Both the position numbers and the translations under genes were made by a program. The notes below the pieces were generated by a model. That model made no database searches. It worked only from the letters and a program-made list of their open reading frames with translations, and was not told the origin of the DNA. 54,620 nucleotides of DNA from Actinomycetota bacterium (GTDB lineage: Bacteria; Actinomycetota; JAICYB01), in contig DATLNZ010000159.1 in assembly GCA_035536535.1 (NCBI GenBank), positions 1 to 54,620 of the forward strand. The letters are read 5' to 3'. Of this stretch, positions 5,153 through 46,671 are shown one piece after another (positions within the stretch are counted from its first letter, which is position 1; every line of letters begins with the position of its first letter).

Positions 5153-8037
5153 CGCGCCACCGCCATCTCCTCGACGGGGCGTCCCAGGTAGGCCGCGATC
5201 ACCTGAGGATCGCGCTTCACAGACTCCGGGGGGCCCTGCGCGATGAGCGACCCGCGGTCGAGCACGTACATGTAGTCGCTCACGGATGTGACCATCTTCA
5301 CGTCGTGCTCGATCAGCAGCAGCGTCATCGCCTCCTCGTCGCGCAGGCGGCGAAGCACCTCCGTCAGCTCCTCCGTTTCCGTGCCGTCGAGGCCCGAAGC
5401 GGGCTCGTCGAGCATGATGAACCGGAAACCCGTCACCAGAGCCCGGGCGACCTCCACCATCCGCAGCACGCCGAAGGGCAGATCGGCTACCCGGCGCTGG
5501 GCGACGTCGGCCAGCTCCAGCCGCTCCACCACCTCGGCCACCCTTCGCCTAGCCTGCCGCTCGGTCTGGATCGACCTCGGGGTTACGACCAGATGCGACA
5601 AAAAGCCCGTGGAGTTGTGCAGGTGGGTCGCGACGAGCAGGTTGTCGAACACCGACAGTTGCGGAAATAGCTGGATCGCCTGAAACGTCCTGGCGACGCC
5701 CATGGCCGCGCGCTCGTGCACCGGCATCTCGCCGACGTCGGTCCCGTGCAGGGTGATGTGCCCGGACGAAGGCGTGACGAGTCCGGCGACCGAGTTGAAC
5801 GTGACGGACTTGCCGGCGCCGTTGGGACCGATCAGTCCGACGATCTCGCCCTCGCGGACCTCCAGCGTCACTCCTTGAACCGCGGTCAGGCCGCCGAAAC
5901 GGACGGTTAGGTCGTCGGCCTTCAGAACGACCGTAGTCTGACGCCGGCCGTCCGGTGAAGCGCTGGGGACAAGAACCGGACCGGGTTCCGATGAAATCGC
6001 ATCGTCCTGTAGTTGTCCGGCCTCCGAAGCGGGCTGCATCCCCCAGGACAGCAGCCGGGCACGGCCGCGGTAGCGTACCCGCCCGGCGAGCCACGACAGG
6101 TCCTCGATCATCTGGTCGGTCAGGGCGTCCGCCCGGCGAAGGGCGCTCATCAGCGCCTGCCGCCCCGCGATCAGGCCTACGATCCTGTGTCCCGCGGCGG
6201 CCAGGCCGCCGCGGTACGCCAGCAGGACGATGGCCAGCAGCGCGGTGGCCGTGACCTCCAGAAAGCCGCTCAGGGCCTGAACCTCGTAGAAGACGTAGTT
6301 GAGGGAGGCGAACACCAGCCCCGACGCCATCCCCCCGGCGAGACTGGAGACGCCGCCCACGACCGCGATCGACAGGAGCAGCAGCGAGATGTTGATCTCG
6401 AACTGCAACGGCGAGATCGCGCGGGCCTCCATCATGAGCAGGTTGCCCGCGACGGCGGCCAGGGCCCCGGACAGGCTGAACGCCAGCAGCTTGTAGCGGA
6501 CGACGTTGATGCCCAGCGACGCGGCGGCCATCTCCGAGCCCTGGACCGCGAAGAACGCGCGGCCGGTCTTGGAGTCGCGCAGGTTGGCCATCGTATAGAG
6601 CAGCGCGAAGGCGACCGCCCAGGCGATGAAGTAGAAGACCGTCCGGCTGGAGAAGTCGAAGTAGGGGAAAGTGCCGGCGCGTCCGATAGGGGCCACCGTG
6701 ATCGAGCTGTGCCTCGTGAACCAGGTCTGGCGGAACAAAAACTCGCTGGCCGTCCAGGTGAAGATGAGAGTGGCGACGGCGAGGTACAGGCCGCGCACCC
6801 GGACCGCGACCGCTCCCAGAGCCACGGCGACGAGCGCGCCGGCCCCCGCGGCGAGCGGGAGGTTGAGCGGGAAGGGGATGCCGAGGCCTTGCGCGAACCA
6901 GCCGGTGGTGTAGGCGCCCACGCCGAGGAATGCCGCATGGGCCAGCGAGATTTGCCCAACCCACCCCGTCAGCATGACGAGTGAGACCGCAACGATCGTG
7001 TAGATGGCCCCCTGGTTGGCCGAACCCAGCAGCGCGTAGTTCAACTTAAAGGGAAGCAGGCAGAACAACAGGACCCCGGCCGCCATAGCTAGACGACGGC
7101 CCGGCAGATCGCGGGCCCTCGGACCATCGCCGGACTTCGCCCTGCCGATCGCACCACCGCGTACGTCTGCACCCGCGACGATGCGGCGCCCACGAAAGGC
7201 CATGGCCGCTATCGCGATGACCGCGAGCAGCAGCTGCGGAGCTCCCTGCATCTGTCCCAGGGAGCCGAGGACGGGAACGAGTCCCAGCGTCACGCCCACC
7301 ACCACGGCCCCCAGGACGGCCCCCGGCAGGCTCGCCATCCCGGCGATGAGCGCGGCCACGAATCCGAACAGGGCCTGGAAGGAAAGGACGTACGGGTGCA
7401 GGTTCGTCGTGTTCGACGCGAGCAGGATCCCCGACAGCCCGGCGAGGCTGCCTCCGATGACCCAGGCGAGGGCGGTGATGCGGTCGGGGTTGACCCCCAT
7501 CAACGCAGCGGCACGCCTGTTCTCGGCCGAACCGCGCATGATCAGTCCGAGGTCGGTCCGCGTGAACAGGACGAACAACGCCGCGGTCACGGCCAGCATC
7601 ACGAAAAAGAGTCCGAACTCCCCGTAGTTGATGGACGACTGGCTGACCTTGACGAAGCCCGCGGGGAAGATCCTCACCGAGGGCAGTCCGGTGGTCCCCC
7701 ACACCTTGGCGGCGATGGCTACGAGGATCCCGAGTGCGGCCACGGTCCCGACGGTCTGGGACGTCGTCGACTCCGACCTCAGGCGCCGGATGAAGACCCT
7801 CTCCACCCCGTACCCGAGCAGTCCGCCGGCCGCCACCCCGAGCACGAATGCGATGGCCGCCGGGACGCGCAGCTTCGCGTTGAGCGTGTAGACCACGTAG
7901 GCCGGGATCATGACCATCGCGCCGTGCGCGAGGTTCAGGACCTGGGACGCCCGGTAGATCATCACGATCCCCACGGCCAGGATCGCGTAGGCCCCGATGT
8001 TCCCCAGGGACAGCAGGACCGCCACGAGGATCTTCAT
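5149..8037 (-). CDS. Fused LivH-LivM-LivG branched-chain-type ABC importer subunit
   Basis: A 962-residue polypeptide that joins three normally separate subunits. LivH-type permease occupies roughly 1-290, LivM-type permease roughly 315-640 (WVGQISLAHAAFLG near 366), and a LivG-type ATPase 715-962 with Walker A GPNGAGKS near 732, Walker B MLDEPASG near 876 and switch IEHD. The signature reads LPFGVLRMVE (near 854), which departs from LSGGQ. The ATG at 8037 starts one base after the TGA of the substrate-binding protein gene. With the following livF it would form a complete inner-membrane importer from only two chains. Substrate cannot be read; this superfamily also carries amides, urea and aromatic acids. 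Confidence 0.9.
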   Translation of the reverse strand: MKILVAVLLSLGNIGAYAILAVGIVMIYRASQVLNLAHGAMVMIPAYVVYTLNAKLRVPAAIAFVLGVAAGGLLGYGVERVFIRRLRSESTTSQTVGTVAALGILVAIAAKVWGTTGLPSVRIFPAGFVKVSQSSINYGEFGLFFVMLAVTAALFVLFTRTDLGLIMRGSAENRRAAALMGVNPDRITALAWVIGGSLAGLSGILLASNTTNLHPYVLSFQALFGFVAALIAGMASLPGAVLGAVVVGVTLGLVPVLGSLGQMQGAPQLLLAVIAIAAMAFRGRRIVAGADVRGGAIGRAKSGDGPRARDLPGRRLAMAAGVLLFCLLPFKLNYALLGSANQGAIYTIVAVSLVMLTGWVGQISLAHAAFLGVGAYTTGWFAQGLGIPFPLNLPLAAGAGALVAVALGAVAVRVRGLYLAVATLIFTWTASEFLFRQTWFTRHSSITVAPIGRAGTFPYFDFSSRTVFYFIAWAVAFALLYTMANLRDSKTGRAFFAVQGSEMAAASLGINVVRYKLLAFSLSGALAAVAGNLLMMEARAISPLQFEINISLLLLSIAVVGGVSSLAGGMASGLVFASLNYVFYEVQALSGFLEVTATALLAIVLLAYRGGLAAAGHRIVGLIAGRQALMSALRRADALTDQMIEDLSWLAGRVRYRGRARLLSWGMQPASEAGQLQDDAISSEPGPVLVPSASPDGRRQTTVVLKADDLTVRFGGLTAVQGVTLEVREGEIVGLIGPNGAGKSVTFNSVAGLVTPSSGHITLHGTDVGEMPVHERAAMGVARTFQAIQLFPQLSVFDNLLVATHLHNSTGFLSHLVVTPRSIQTERQARRRVAEVVERLELADVAQRRVADLPFGVLRMVEVARALVTGFRFIMLDEPASGLDGTETEELTEVLRRLRDEEAMTLLLIEHDVKMVTSVSDYMYVLDRGSLIAQGPPESVKRDPQVIAAYLGRPVEEMAVAR

Positions 8038-41618: not shown

Positions 41619-42005
41619 CTATCCCTTCTTGCCGACCTTCTTCTTCTTGGCCCCCACCGTCTTGCGGGGACCCTTGCGCGTGCGGGCGTTGGTCTGAGTG
41701 CGCTGTCCCCGGACAGGCAGTCCGAGGACGTGCCTCATGCCCTGGTAGGACCCGATCTCGATCTTTCGGCGGATGTTCTCCTGAACCTCCCGCCGCAACT
41801 CGCCCTCGACCTTCACGTTTACGTCGATCCACTGCCTGATCCGGGCGACCTCCTCGTCGCTCAGGTCGCGTACCTTGGCCGCGGGATCGATGTTCGCGCG
41901 CTCGCAGATCTGCTTCGCCTTCACGTTGCCCACACCGAAGATGTAGGTCAGGGACACGTCCGCGCGCTTGTCGCGCGGCAGGTCGACCCCCGCGATACGT
42001 GCCAA
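41619..42005 (-). CDS. rpsM: Small-subunit ribosomal protein S13
   Basis: A 128-residue S13. [20 protein letters not shown], the [20 protein letters not shown] block and a Lys-rich tail are typical. ATG one base after the rpmJ stop. Confidence 0.98.
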
Positions 42006-42006
42006 A

Positions 42007-42123
42007 TCAGGCCCCCTGGCGCTGCTTGTGGCGCGGGTTCTCGCAGATCACGAGAACCCGGCCGTGCCGGCGGATGACCTTGCACTTGTCACACATCTTC
42101 TTCACGGACGCGCGAACCTTCAC
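42007..42123 (-). CDS. rpmJ: Large-subunit ribosomal protein L36
   Basis: A 38-residue L36, easily missed because of its size and GTG start. It reads [17 protein letters not shown] and continues to the expected KQRQGA end. Zinc ligands C11, C14, C27 and H32 are complete. A purine-rich AGG precedes the GTG at 42123. It heads the rpmJ-rpsM-rpsK-rpsD-rpoA-rplQ set and may have its own promoter at 42211-42239. Confidence 0.95.
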
Positions 42124-42210
42124 TACGCCTGCTTTCTGTCGGTTTCAAGCTCTCGCCCTAGGCCCGGACGCGCGAACGCGGCCGTACCCTTGCCGGGGCG
42201 GCGAACGGCA

Positions 42211-42239
42211 AGTTTAGCGTAGTCGGCCCCCTGCGTCGA
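42211..42239 (-). promoter_or_regulatory. Predicted internal promoter ahead of rpmJ
   Basis: On the - strand: TCGACG (-35, 42234-42239), 17-base spacer, TAAACT (-10, 42211-42216), in the 123-base gap between map and rpmJ. Moderate match. The gap holds no gene; infA, which usually sits here, is missing. Confidence 0.4.
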
Positions 42240-42246
42240 CCGCCGC

Positions 42247-42996
42247 TCAGGGCAGGGTGAGCACAAGCGGATCACCGTCGGTCACTGCGACCGAGTGCTC
42301 GAAGTGGGCGGACAGGGACCGGTCCGCGGTCACGACCGTCCACTCATCGGCGAGTACCTCCGTCTCCCACCCCCCGGCGTTGACCATCGGCTCGATCGCC
42401 AGCGCCATGCCGGGCTCCAGCTTCGGCCCCCGGCCGGGCGCGCCATAGTTCGGGATCTGTGGCTCCTCGTGCAGGTTGCGCCCGAGCCCGTGCCCCACGT
42501 ACTCGCGGACCACGGTGAACCCCGCCCCCTCGGCGACCTGCTGCACGGCGTGCGAGATGTCGGACAGCCGCTGCCCGGGCCTCACCTGGCGGATGCCGGC
42601 CCACAGCGACTCCTCGGTGGCTTTGAGCAGCCCCTGGACCTCCTCGGGCGGGGACTCCCCCGCGTAGAAGGTGGCGGCCGAGTCGGCGTGGTACCCGTCG
42701 TGGATCGCCCCGACGTCGATCTTCACCAGGTCCCCCTCCTCGATGCGGCGCGGACCCGGGATCCCGTGGACGACCTCTTCGTTGATCGAGATGCAGACGC
42801 TGCCGGGAAAGCCGCGGTACCCCTTGAACGAAGGCACGCAGCCGGCTGCGCGGATGACCTTCTCGACGACCGCGTCGACCTCGGACGTCCGGACACCCGG
42901 CCTCACGTGCTCCCGCGCCGCCTGAAGCGCGGTGGCCACCACCTTGCCGGCCGAACGCATCCGGTCGAGCTCGTCCGGCGACTTCTTGATGATCAC
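42247..42996 (-). CDS. map: Type I methionine aminopeptidase
   Basis: A 249-residue enzyme that removes the initiator Met from new proteins. The metal-binding Asp, His and Glu residues lie in KIDVGAIHDGYHADSA, GHGLGRNLHEEPQIPNY and the IEPMV segment, with a final Glu in HFEHSVAVTD. No N-terminal zinc-finger extension. GTG at 42996, 16 bases after adk. Confidence 0.97.
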   Translation of the reverse strand: MIIKKSPDELDRMRSAGKVVATALQAAREHVRPGVRTSEVDAVVEKVIRAAGCVPSFKGYRGFPGSVCISINEEVVHGIPGPRRIEEGDLVKIDVGAIHDGYHADSAATFYAGESPPEEVQGLLKATEESLWAGIRQVRPGQRLSDISHAVQQVAEGAGFTVVREYVGHGLGRNLHEEPQIPNYGAPGRGPKLEPGMALAIEPMVNAGGWETEVLADEWTVVTADRSLSAHFEHSVAVTDGDPLVLTLP

Positions 42997-45429: not shown

Positions 45430-45629
45430 GAGCTCCCTCCGGACTCGCCGTTCTCGGGCTCGACCTTGACCAGGTGCCTGACCTTGAAAGCCATCCCGCG
45501 CAGCGACGGGGTGTCCTCATGCACGACGCTCTGCCCGATCTTGCGCAGGCCCAGCGAGCGAACGGTTCTGCGCTGGCCGTCGGGACACCCGATGACGCTT
45601 CGGAACTGTGTGATACGGATCCTGGGCAT
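45426..45629 (-). CDS. rpmD: Large-subunit ribosomal protein L30
   Basis: A 67-residue L30: [37 protein letters not shown] and [14 protein letters not shown] are the family pattern, with a short Gly/Ser tail. The ATG at 45629 overlaps the rpsE stop by one base. Confidence 0.96.
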
Positions 45630-46291
45630 CACGAACCGTCTTTCGCGGGCTCGGCGCCGTCGCCTGCGGGCTGCGGCTCCGACGCGGCTTCGGGAGCCGC
45701 GCCCTTGGTCTTCGCCGCTTCCATCCGGCGCAGCATGACCCTGGGAGCCACCTGCTCGAGTGACTTGCCCCGCACCCTGGCGACCTCCTCTGGACGACGC
45801 AGCGACTTGAGGCCCTCCATCGTCGCGTGAACCACGTTGATCGGATTGTTCGTGCCGAGGATCTTCGCCAGGCAGTCCTCTACCCCCGCACACTCCAGCA
45901 CGGCGCGAACCGGTCCCCCAGCGATGACCCCCGTACCCGGGGCCGCAGGCTTGAGCATCACGCGTGCCGCTCCGTGGGCGCCGATGACCTCGTGGGGGAT
46001 GGTCGCGCCGATCATCGGGACGGTGAACATCGACCGCTTCGCGTACTCCTTGGCCTTGTCGATCGCCGCGGGCACCTCCTTGGCCTTGCCGTAGCCCATG
46101 CCGACGCGGCCCGCCTTGTCGCCGACGACCATCGTCGCGGTGAAGGAGAACCGGCGGCCGCCCTTCTGGACCTTGGCGACCCTGTTGGGCCGTCCGATCA
46201 GTCTGTCCTCGAGCTGAGGACGTCCGTCATCGGCCTGGTCGCGGTCGCGTCGGCGTCCTCGCCCGGCATCTGATCTGCGTTGCGCGCTCAG
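45629..46291 (-). CDS. rpsE: Small-subunit ribosomal protein S5, with a probable CTG start
   Basis: S5 of about 220 residues. The conserved block [17 protein letters not shown] lies upstream of the first in-frame ATG (46132), so that ATG would remove an essential part of the RNA-binding domain. The frame is open back to a TGA at about 46307, with no ATG, GTG or TTG in between. The CTG at 46291 overlaps the rplR stop as CTGA and has GGGAGG about nine bases upstream, mirroring the ATGA junctions around it. The resulting N-terminus ([19 protein letters not shown]) is the Arg-rich kind expected in actinobacteria. An Ala/Pro-rich tail ends the protein. Confidence 0.88.
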
Positions 46292-46671
46292 AACTGCAAC
46301 CCTCCCTCACGTGCCCCTTCGGCCAGGGCTGCGACCCTGCCGTGGTAGGCATAGCCGCCTCTGTCGAACGCGACCTTCTCGACCCCCGCCGCCTTGGCTC
46401 TCTCGGCCACGATCGACCCTACTCGCTTGGCCGACTCTGCTTTGCGGGCCTGCTCCCCGCGCAGCGAAGCATCCAGCGACGAGGCCGAGGCGAGCGTACG
46501 TCCGGCCACGTCGTCGATCACCTGGGCGTAGATGTGCCGGGCAGACCGGAAAACCACGAGGCGCGGGCGCTCGGGCATGCCGAGAACCCTCTTGCGGACC
46601 CGCCGATGCCGCCGGACGCGTGACAGCCGGCGCTCCTGGGCCTTGTTGCGCGCGGACAGGGCACCGGCCAT
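46288..46671 (-). CDS. rplR: Large-subunit ribosomal protein L18
   Basis: A 127-residue L18, a 5S rRNA binder: [34 protein letters not shown] and [18 protein letters not shown]. The ATG overlaps the rplF stop by one base (TAATG). Confidence 0.98.

Follow-up and report, generated by a model that had tools for sequence, protein, structure and literature searches.

The rpsE gene of the actinobacterial genome studied here, which encodes ribosomal protein S5 (uS5), very probably starts at a CTG codon, assisted by a Shine-Dalgarno (SD) sequence and coupled to termination of the preceding rplR (uL18) gene. Starts of this kind are known but rare, and this one has an unusual cause: its first letter doubles as the third position of the final rplR codon, a Phe codon (TTY), which allows CTG but neither ATG nor GTG.

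The rplR/rpsE junction and the S5 reading frame

The window, the whole stretch of 54,620 nucleotides that was analyzed, is contig C159 of the source genome (G000), a 2.62-Mb draft in 205 contigs rated 100% complete, and carries the S10-spc-alpha ribosomal protein operon on its minus strand. The rpsE coding region (45629–46291, minus strand) comprises 220 codons between the proposed CTG start at 46289–46291 and its TGA stop. The rplR gene (46288–46671, minus strand) ends in TTC TGA (46288–46293), its last Phe codon and stop, and the TGA at 46290–46288 shares bases with the CTG at 46291–46289 as CTGA on the same strand; the junction TTC TGA / CTG AGC (46293–46286) is thus a 4-nt overlap of the NTGA type, in which the start takes its C from the wobble position of the Phe codon. 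An SD-like GGGAGG lies inside rplR at 46301–46306 (minus strand), its core GGAGG (46301–46305) being 9 nt before the CTG, a usual distance for an SD inside the upstream gene of an NTGA pair. From GGGAGG into rpsE the codons read GGG AGG GTT GCA GTT CTG AGC GCG CAA. The rpsE frame is bounded upstream by an in-frame TGA at 46307–46309 (minus strand), and no ATG, GTG or TTG was found between this stop and the first in-frame ATG at 46130–46132 (minus strand), which lies within the S5 domain. The segment without these codons downstream of the CTG (46133–46288, minus strand) holds the conserved S5 RNA-binding block, so that the frame has no canonical start upstream of the conserved domain. The CTG is in frame with the ATG and 53 codons upstream of it, and is the only NTG in frame from the upstream TGA to a second CTG at codon 31, which is followed by an ATC at codon 32. 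At the other end of the gene, the rpsE stop and the start of rpmD (L30) overlap by 1 nt as TGATG (45627–45631, minus strand). ATGA or GTGA junctions occur elsewhere in the operon, for example at rplP/rpmC, rpmC/rpsQ, rpsQ/rplN, rplC/rplD and rpmD/rplO. As a separate observation on the operon, infA is absent from its usual site between map and rpmJ (42005–42247 of the window), and the infA of this genome is on contig C191.

The open frame from just upstream of the CTG to the rpsE stop (P0001) was compared with protein families. It matches the bacterial S5 model TIGR01021 (rpsE_bact) over positions 3–155 of 156 with 212.7 bits, against a curated cutoff of 164.05, and is thus a full-length bacterial S5. 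Both Pfam S5 domains were matched, PF00333 at residues 41–97, and the ATG at 46132 is residue 59 of P0001. A mechanical open reading frame call gives a protein of 167 residues (45629–46132) in place of the 220 obtained from the CTG. A second rpsE was not found in this genome, and the gene is therefore single copy within an assembly rated complete.

An earlier note on this DNA had described a gene with no canonical start, an in-frame TGA at about 46307, a conserved S5 block upstream of the first ATG, a CTGA overlap with the rplR stop preceded by GGGAGG, and ATGA and GTGA junctions elsewhere in the operon, and had expected automatic annotation to truncate the protein at 46132; all of this agrees with the positions and the mechanical call given above.

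Conservation of the junction and the origin of its first base

The family and the class are sampled by three genomes (G000, G001 and G002), each its own genus. In G001, whose S5 is 81% identical, the junction is GAAGGAGGGCTGGACTTCTGAACGCGCAG, with the CTGA and the GGAGG-N9 spacing found in G000, and no ATG, GTG or TTG was found within the 75 codons upstream of the NRVAKV block. In G002 the junction is GAGGGAGGACTCGAGTTTTGAGCGATC, with TTGA, a TTG start and again the same GGAGG-N9 spacing. The arrangement GGAGG-N9-YTGA is therefore present at the rplR/rpsE junction in all three genera, and the position of the start is kept, as CTG in one relative and TTG in the other. In a scan of 55 rpsE loci, drawn from the phylum and from some outgroups, a canonical start was present in a plausible interval at 53, the only exceptions being G000 and G001; manual reading of three loci that the scan had missed showed canonical starts there too, giving two loci without ATG, GTG or TTG among the 58 inspected. 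Codons 15–53 of the two exceptional genes include 23 that are identical, 13 with synonymous differences and three with nonsynonymous differences, and the base changes fall 14 times at the third codon position, four times at the first and once at the second. This pattern is that of purifying selection, and because the codon differences are mostly synonymous, the segment upstream of the ATG at 46132 is read as protein. The absence of a canonical start is beyond chance, since a second genus is likewise without one and the region is under coding constraint. The alignment with related genomes that the earlier note had proposed thus favors its choice of the CTG as the likely start, through the shared architecture in G001, the TTG in G002, the coding constraint and the SD at 9 nt.

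What that note had missed is the source of the C: the start shares its first base with the wobble position of the final rplR codon. Phe is the last residue of L18 in 45 of 56 loci, and with a 4-nt overlap a Phe codon followed by TGA allows only CTG (from TTC TGA) or TTG (from TTT TGA) as the start. In all five readable 4-nt overlaps that are used as starts, the start begins with the base that ends the final L18 codon: TTC gives CTG in G000 and G001, TTT gives TTG in G002 and G045, and in G046, where L18 ends in Leu (CTG TGA), the start is GTG. Relatives without the overlap have their rpsE start beyond the L18 stop, in many cases a TAG. The GGAGG within the last rplR codons is present at eight of the 10 loci in which rpsE overlaps the rplR stop and at none of the 46 others (Fisher p about 3e-8, for loci that are related to each other), which supports its assignment as the SD of the overlapping rpsE start. 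In the genes sampled, Phe is encoded by TTC in 86% of cases in G000 (a figure that may include some non-coding frames), 99.7% in G001 and 97.5% in G002. That G002 has TTT exactly at the junction hints, as a single case, at selection favoring TTG over CTG.

Beyond the family, the pattern GGAGG-N9-YTGA at the end of L18 was matched in 17 of 397 genomes of the phylum. From the positions of the pattern and of the S5 match, NTGA places its N in the S5 frame in G320, G263 and G143, which have TTC TGA, and in G111, G175, G340, G331 and G303, which have TTT TGA; in G231, G298, G288, G079, G293 and G357 the N falls outside that frame. In family f43 the junction has TTT in G111 and G175 and TTC in G320, with a nearly equal distance to the S5 block, and a parallel switch from TTG to CTG is plausible there. 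Independent CTG starts in other actinobacterial families are possible on the same positional grounds at about 76300 of contig C1 in G320, about 51647 of C46 in G263 and about 103635 of C11 in G143, as are canonical starts lying a few codons further down.

Proposed initiation at CUG and alternative readings

We infer that S5 synthesis would begin with fMet-tRNA at the CUG at 46291 in a termination-coupled manner. Ribosomes that finish rplR at the TGA (46290–46288) would then be positioned over the shared CUGA, with the 30S subunit kept at the right distance by the GGAGG within the final codons of rplR, and the same ribosome, or one newly recruited, would begin S5 at the CUG. The evolutionary route may have been synonymous drift to TTC in a GC-rich family, which would have created CTG in the genera of G000 and G001, with the rare TTT, and hence a TTG start, retained in G002. 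NTGA is the commonest close spacing among co-directional genes (PMC12548453), and termination-reinitiation has been tested on 14 overlapping pairs (PMC6728339); there is good documentation for coupling by restart. The rplR/rpsE junction resembles the NTGA pairs of these two studies in being a co-directional ribosomal pair with shared stop and start bases and an internal SD; it differs from the usual examples, ATGA and TGATG, in that N is C and depends on the residue with which the upstream protein ends. Initiation complexes on CUG are less stable in Escherichia coli than those on AUG, GUG or UUG (PMC11497404), which counts against a CTG start and is awkward for a protein that every ribosome needs. 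Start codons also switch to CUG very rarely, a further point against this reading: comparisons of close genomes give 3.2e-5 to 4e-4 switches per gene, with a handful of instances in about 69,000 genes (PMC5622118). The rpsE start is like these rare prokaryotic CUG starts in that it would have been reached by substitution from a canonical start, and differs in occurring in two genera, in a core ribosomal protein and with an overlap constraint that explains the base. A report of reinitiation at non-canonical starts in eukaryotic cells (PMC4648390) was set aside.

Features that might help initiation at CUG were looked for, and none was found. A special initiator tRNA was rejected, as the tRNA-Met with the GGG/CCC anticodon stem and CAU detected in the contigs sampled looks like an ordinary initiator; an absent or odd IF3 was likewise rejected, as IF3 is present and scores above its cutoff. 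No strong RNA structure was found at the rpsE start (z-scores 0.66 and -0.99).

Initiation at another near-cognate codon of the frame, either the CTG at codon 31 or the ATC at codon 32, is quite unlikely. Both codons share the rpsE frame and precede the RNA-binding block, and the ATC is kept in G001, but it follows constrained coding sequence: codons 15–30, upstream of both candidates, are conserved as protein. Moreover, the CTG at codon 31 is CTC in G001, the sequence directly upstream of either codon has no GGAGG-like SD on reading, and G002 has its TTG at the overlap position. A sequencing or assembly error hiding a true TTG (TTT TGA), ATG or GTG is very unlikely. Such an error is conceivable in a draft of many contigs, and TTT TGA does occur in G002 and G045; yet the CTG is also present in the separate genome of another genus, which makes the masking indel or substitution raised in the earlier note unlikely, and TTC is the preferred Phe codon. 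Unless the masked start were TTG, rplR would also end in Leu, the outcome of an ATG or GTG at this position, instead of its near-universal and conserved Phe.

At the junction rpsE lies in the -1 frame of rplR, as would be needed for a -1 frameshift at the end of rplR that yields an L18-S5 fusion with no separate S5 start. This reading is highly improbable, given that no slippery heptamer is present at CAG TTC TGA, GAC TTC TGA or GAG TTT TGA, that the ribosome needs both proteins at about 1:1, and that the first-base rule extends to relatives with GTG and TTG starts. It is scarcely credible that S5 is truncated at the ATG at 46132, or that this gene is defunct and another copy has taken its place. 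The truncated form is what the mechanical call returns, but it would lose the start of the S5 N-terminal domain, as residue 59 falls within PF00333; the region upstream of the ATG is under coding constraint, and the genome has no other rpsE.

Other near-cognate starts and significance

Surveys for CTG starts in G000, based on coding potential and covering about a quarter of the genome (about 410 genes), gave rpsE as the only clear case, and general use of CTG starts was not seen among these genes. On inspection the remaining hits either had a plausible canonical start or were beyond judging, and a Streptomyces-like control gave a similar number of hits to G000, so that the survey method is noisy. 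A stop-to-stop homology screen was at first dominated by antisense and out-of-frame overlaps; once it had been filtered, rpsE and infC alone stood out, and a deoB-like gene was found separately.

In all three genera infC starts at ATA after an AGGAG-type SD (L040 in G000, L202 in G001 and L203 in G002) and has no canonical start before the conserved N terminus. The infC gene of E. coli starts at AUU, and infC is a known case of autoregulation through IF3. The ATA start would fit this known rare-start autoregulation. The infC and rpsE genes are alike as essential translation genes without ATG, GTG or TTG, but they differ in that a regulatory role for the rpsE CTG is only conjectural. A deoB-like phosphopentomutase gene has an apparent ATC start at the same alignment position in G000 (L204) and G001 (L114, minus strand, near 6985), preceded by an SD-like GGGGGAG or GGAGG; the only canonical codons before its conserved N terminus are within the upstream gene, together with an internal GTG in G000. 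An acyltransferase-like frame in G000 (L046, 15571–16503, plus strand) has 48 codons without a canonical start after a CTGA overlap and no clear SD, and is a possible second CTG start in this genome. A small frame of G001 that overlaps an upstream stop (L123, 928–1143) shows a coding signal before its first canonical start and no in-frame NTG, possibly owing to a frameshift or a misjudged boundary.

The CTG might also be kept for a function. S5 contributes to the fidelity and the assembly of the 30S subunit, and its G28D substitution leads to miscoding and to defects in biogenesis (PMC2440530). The weak CUG could be read better by ribosomes that are poorly assembled and less discriminating, such that a shortage of S5 would raise S5 synthesis, a feedback that may be likened to IF3 acting through infC. 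In a weaker form of this reading, the class would be unusually tolerant of near-cognate starts, as in the CTG of rpsE, the ATA of infC and the apparent ATC of deoB. Taken together, the two forms seem unlikely.

CTG is hardly used as a bacterial start, and gene finders that allow only ATG, GTG and TTG lose 53 residues of S5 here. The overlap rule predicts further CTG starts in lineages that combine a 4-nt rplR/rpsE overlap with TTC TGA. As a core single-copy gene with a CTG start in two genera, rpsE would provide a natural test of whether termination coupling relaxes the choice of start codon.
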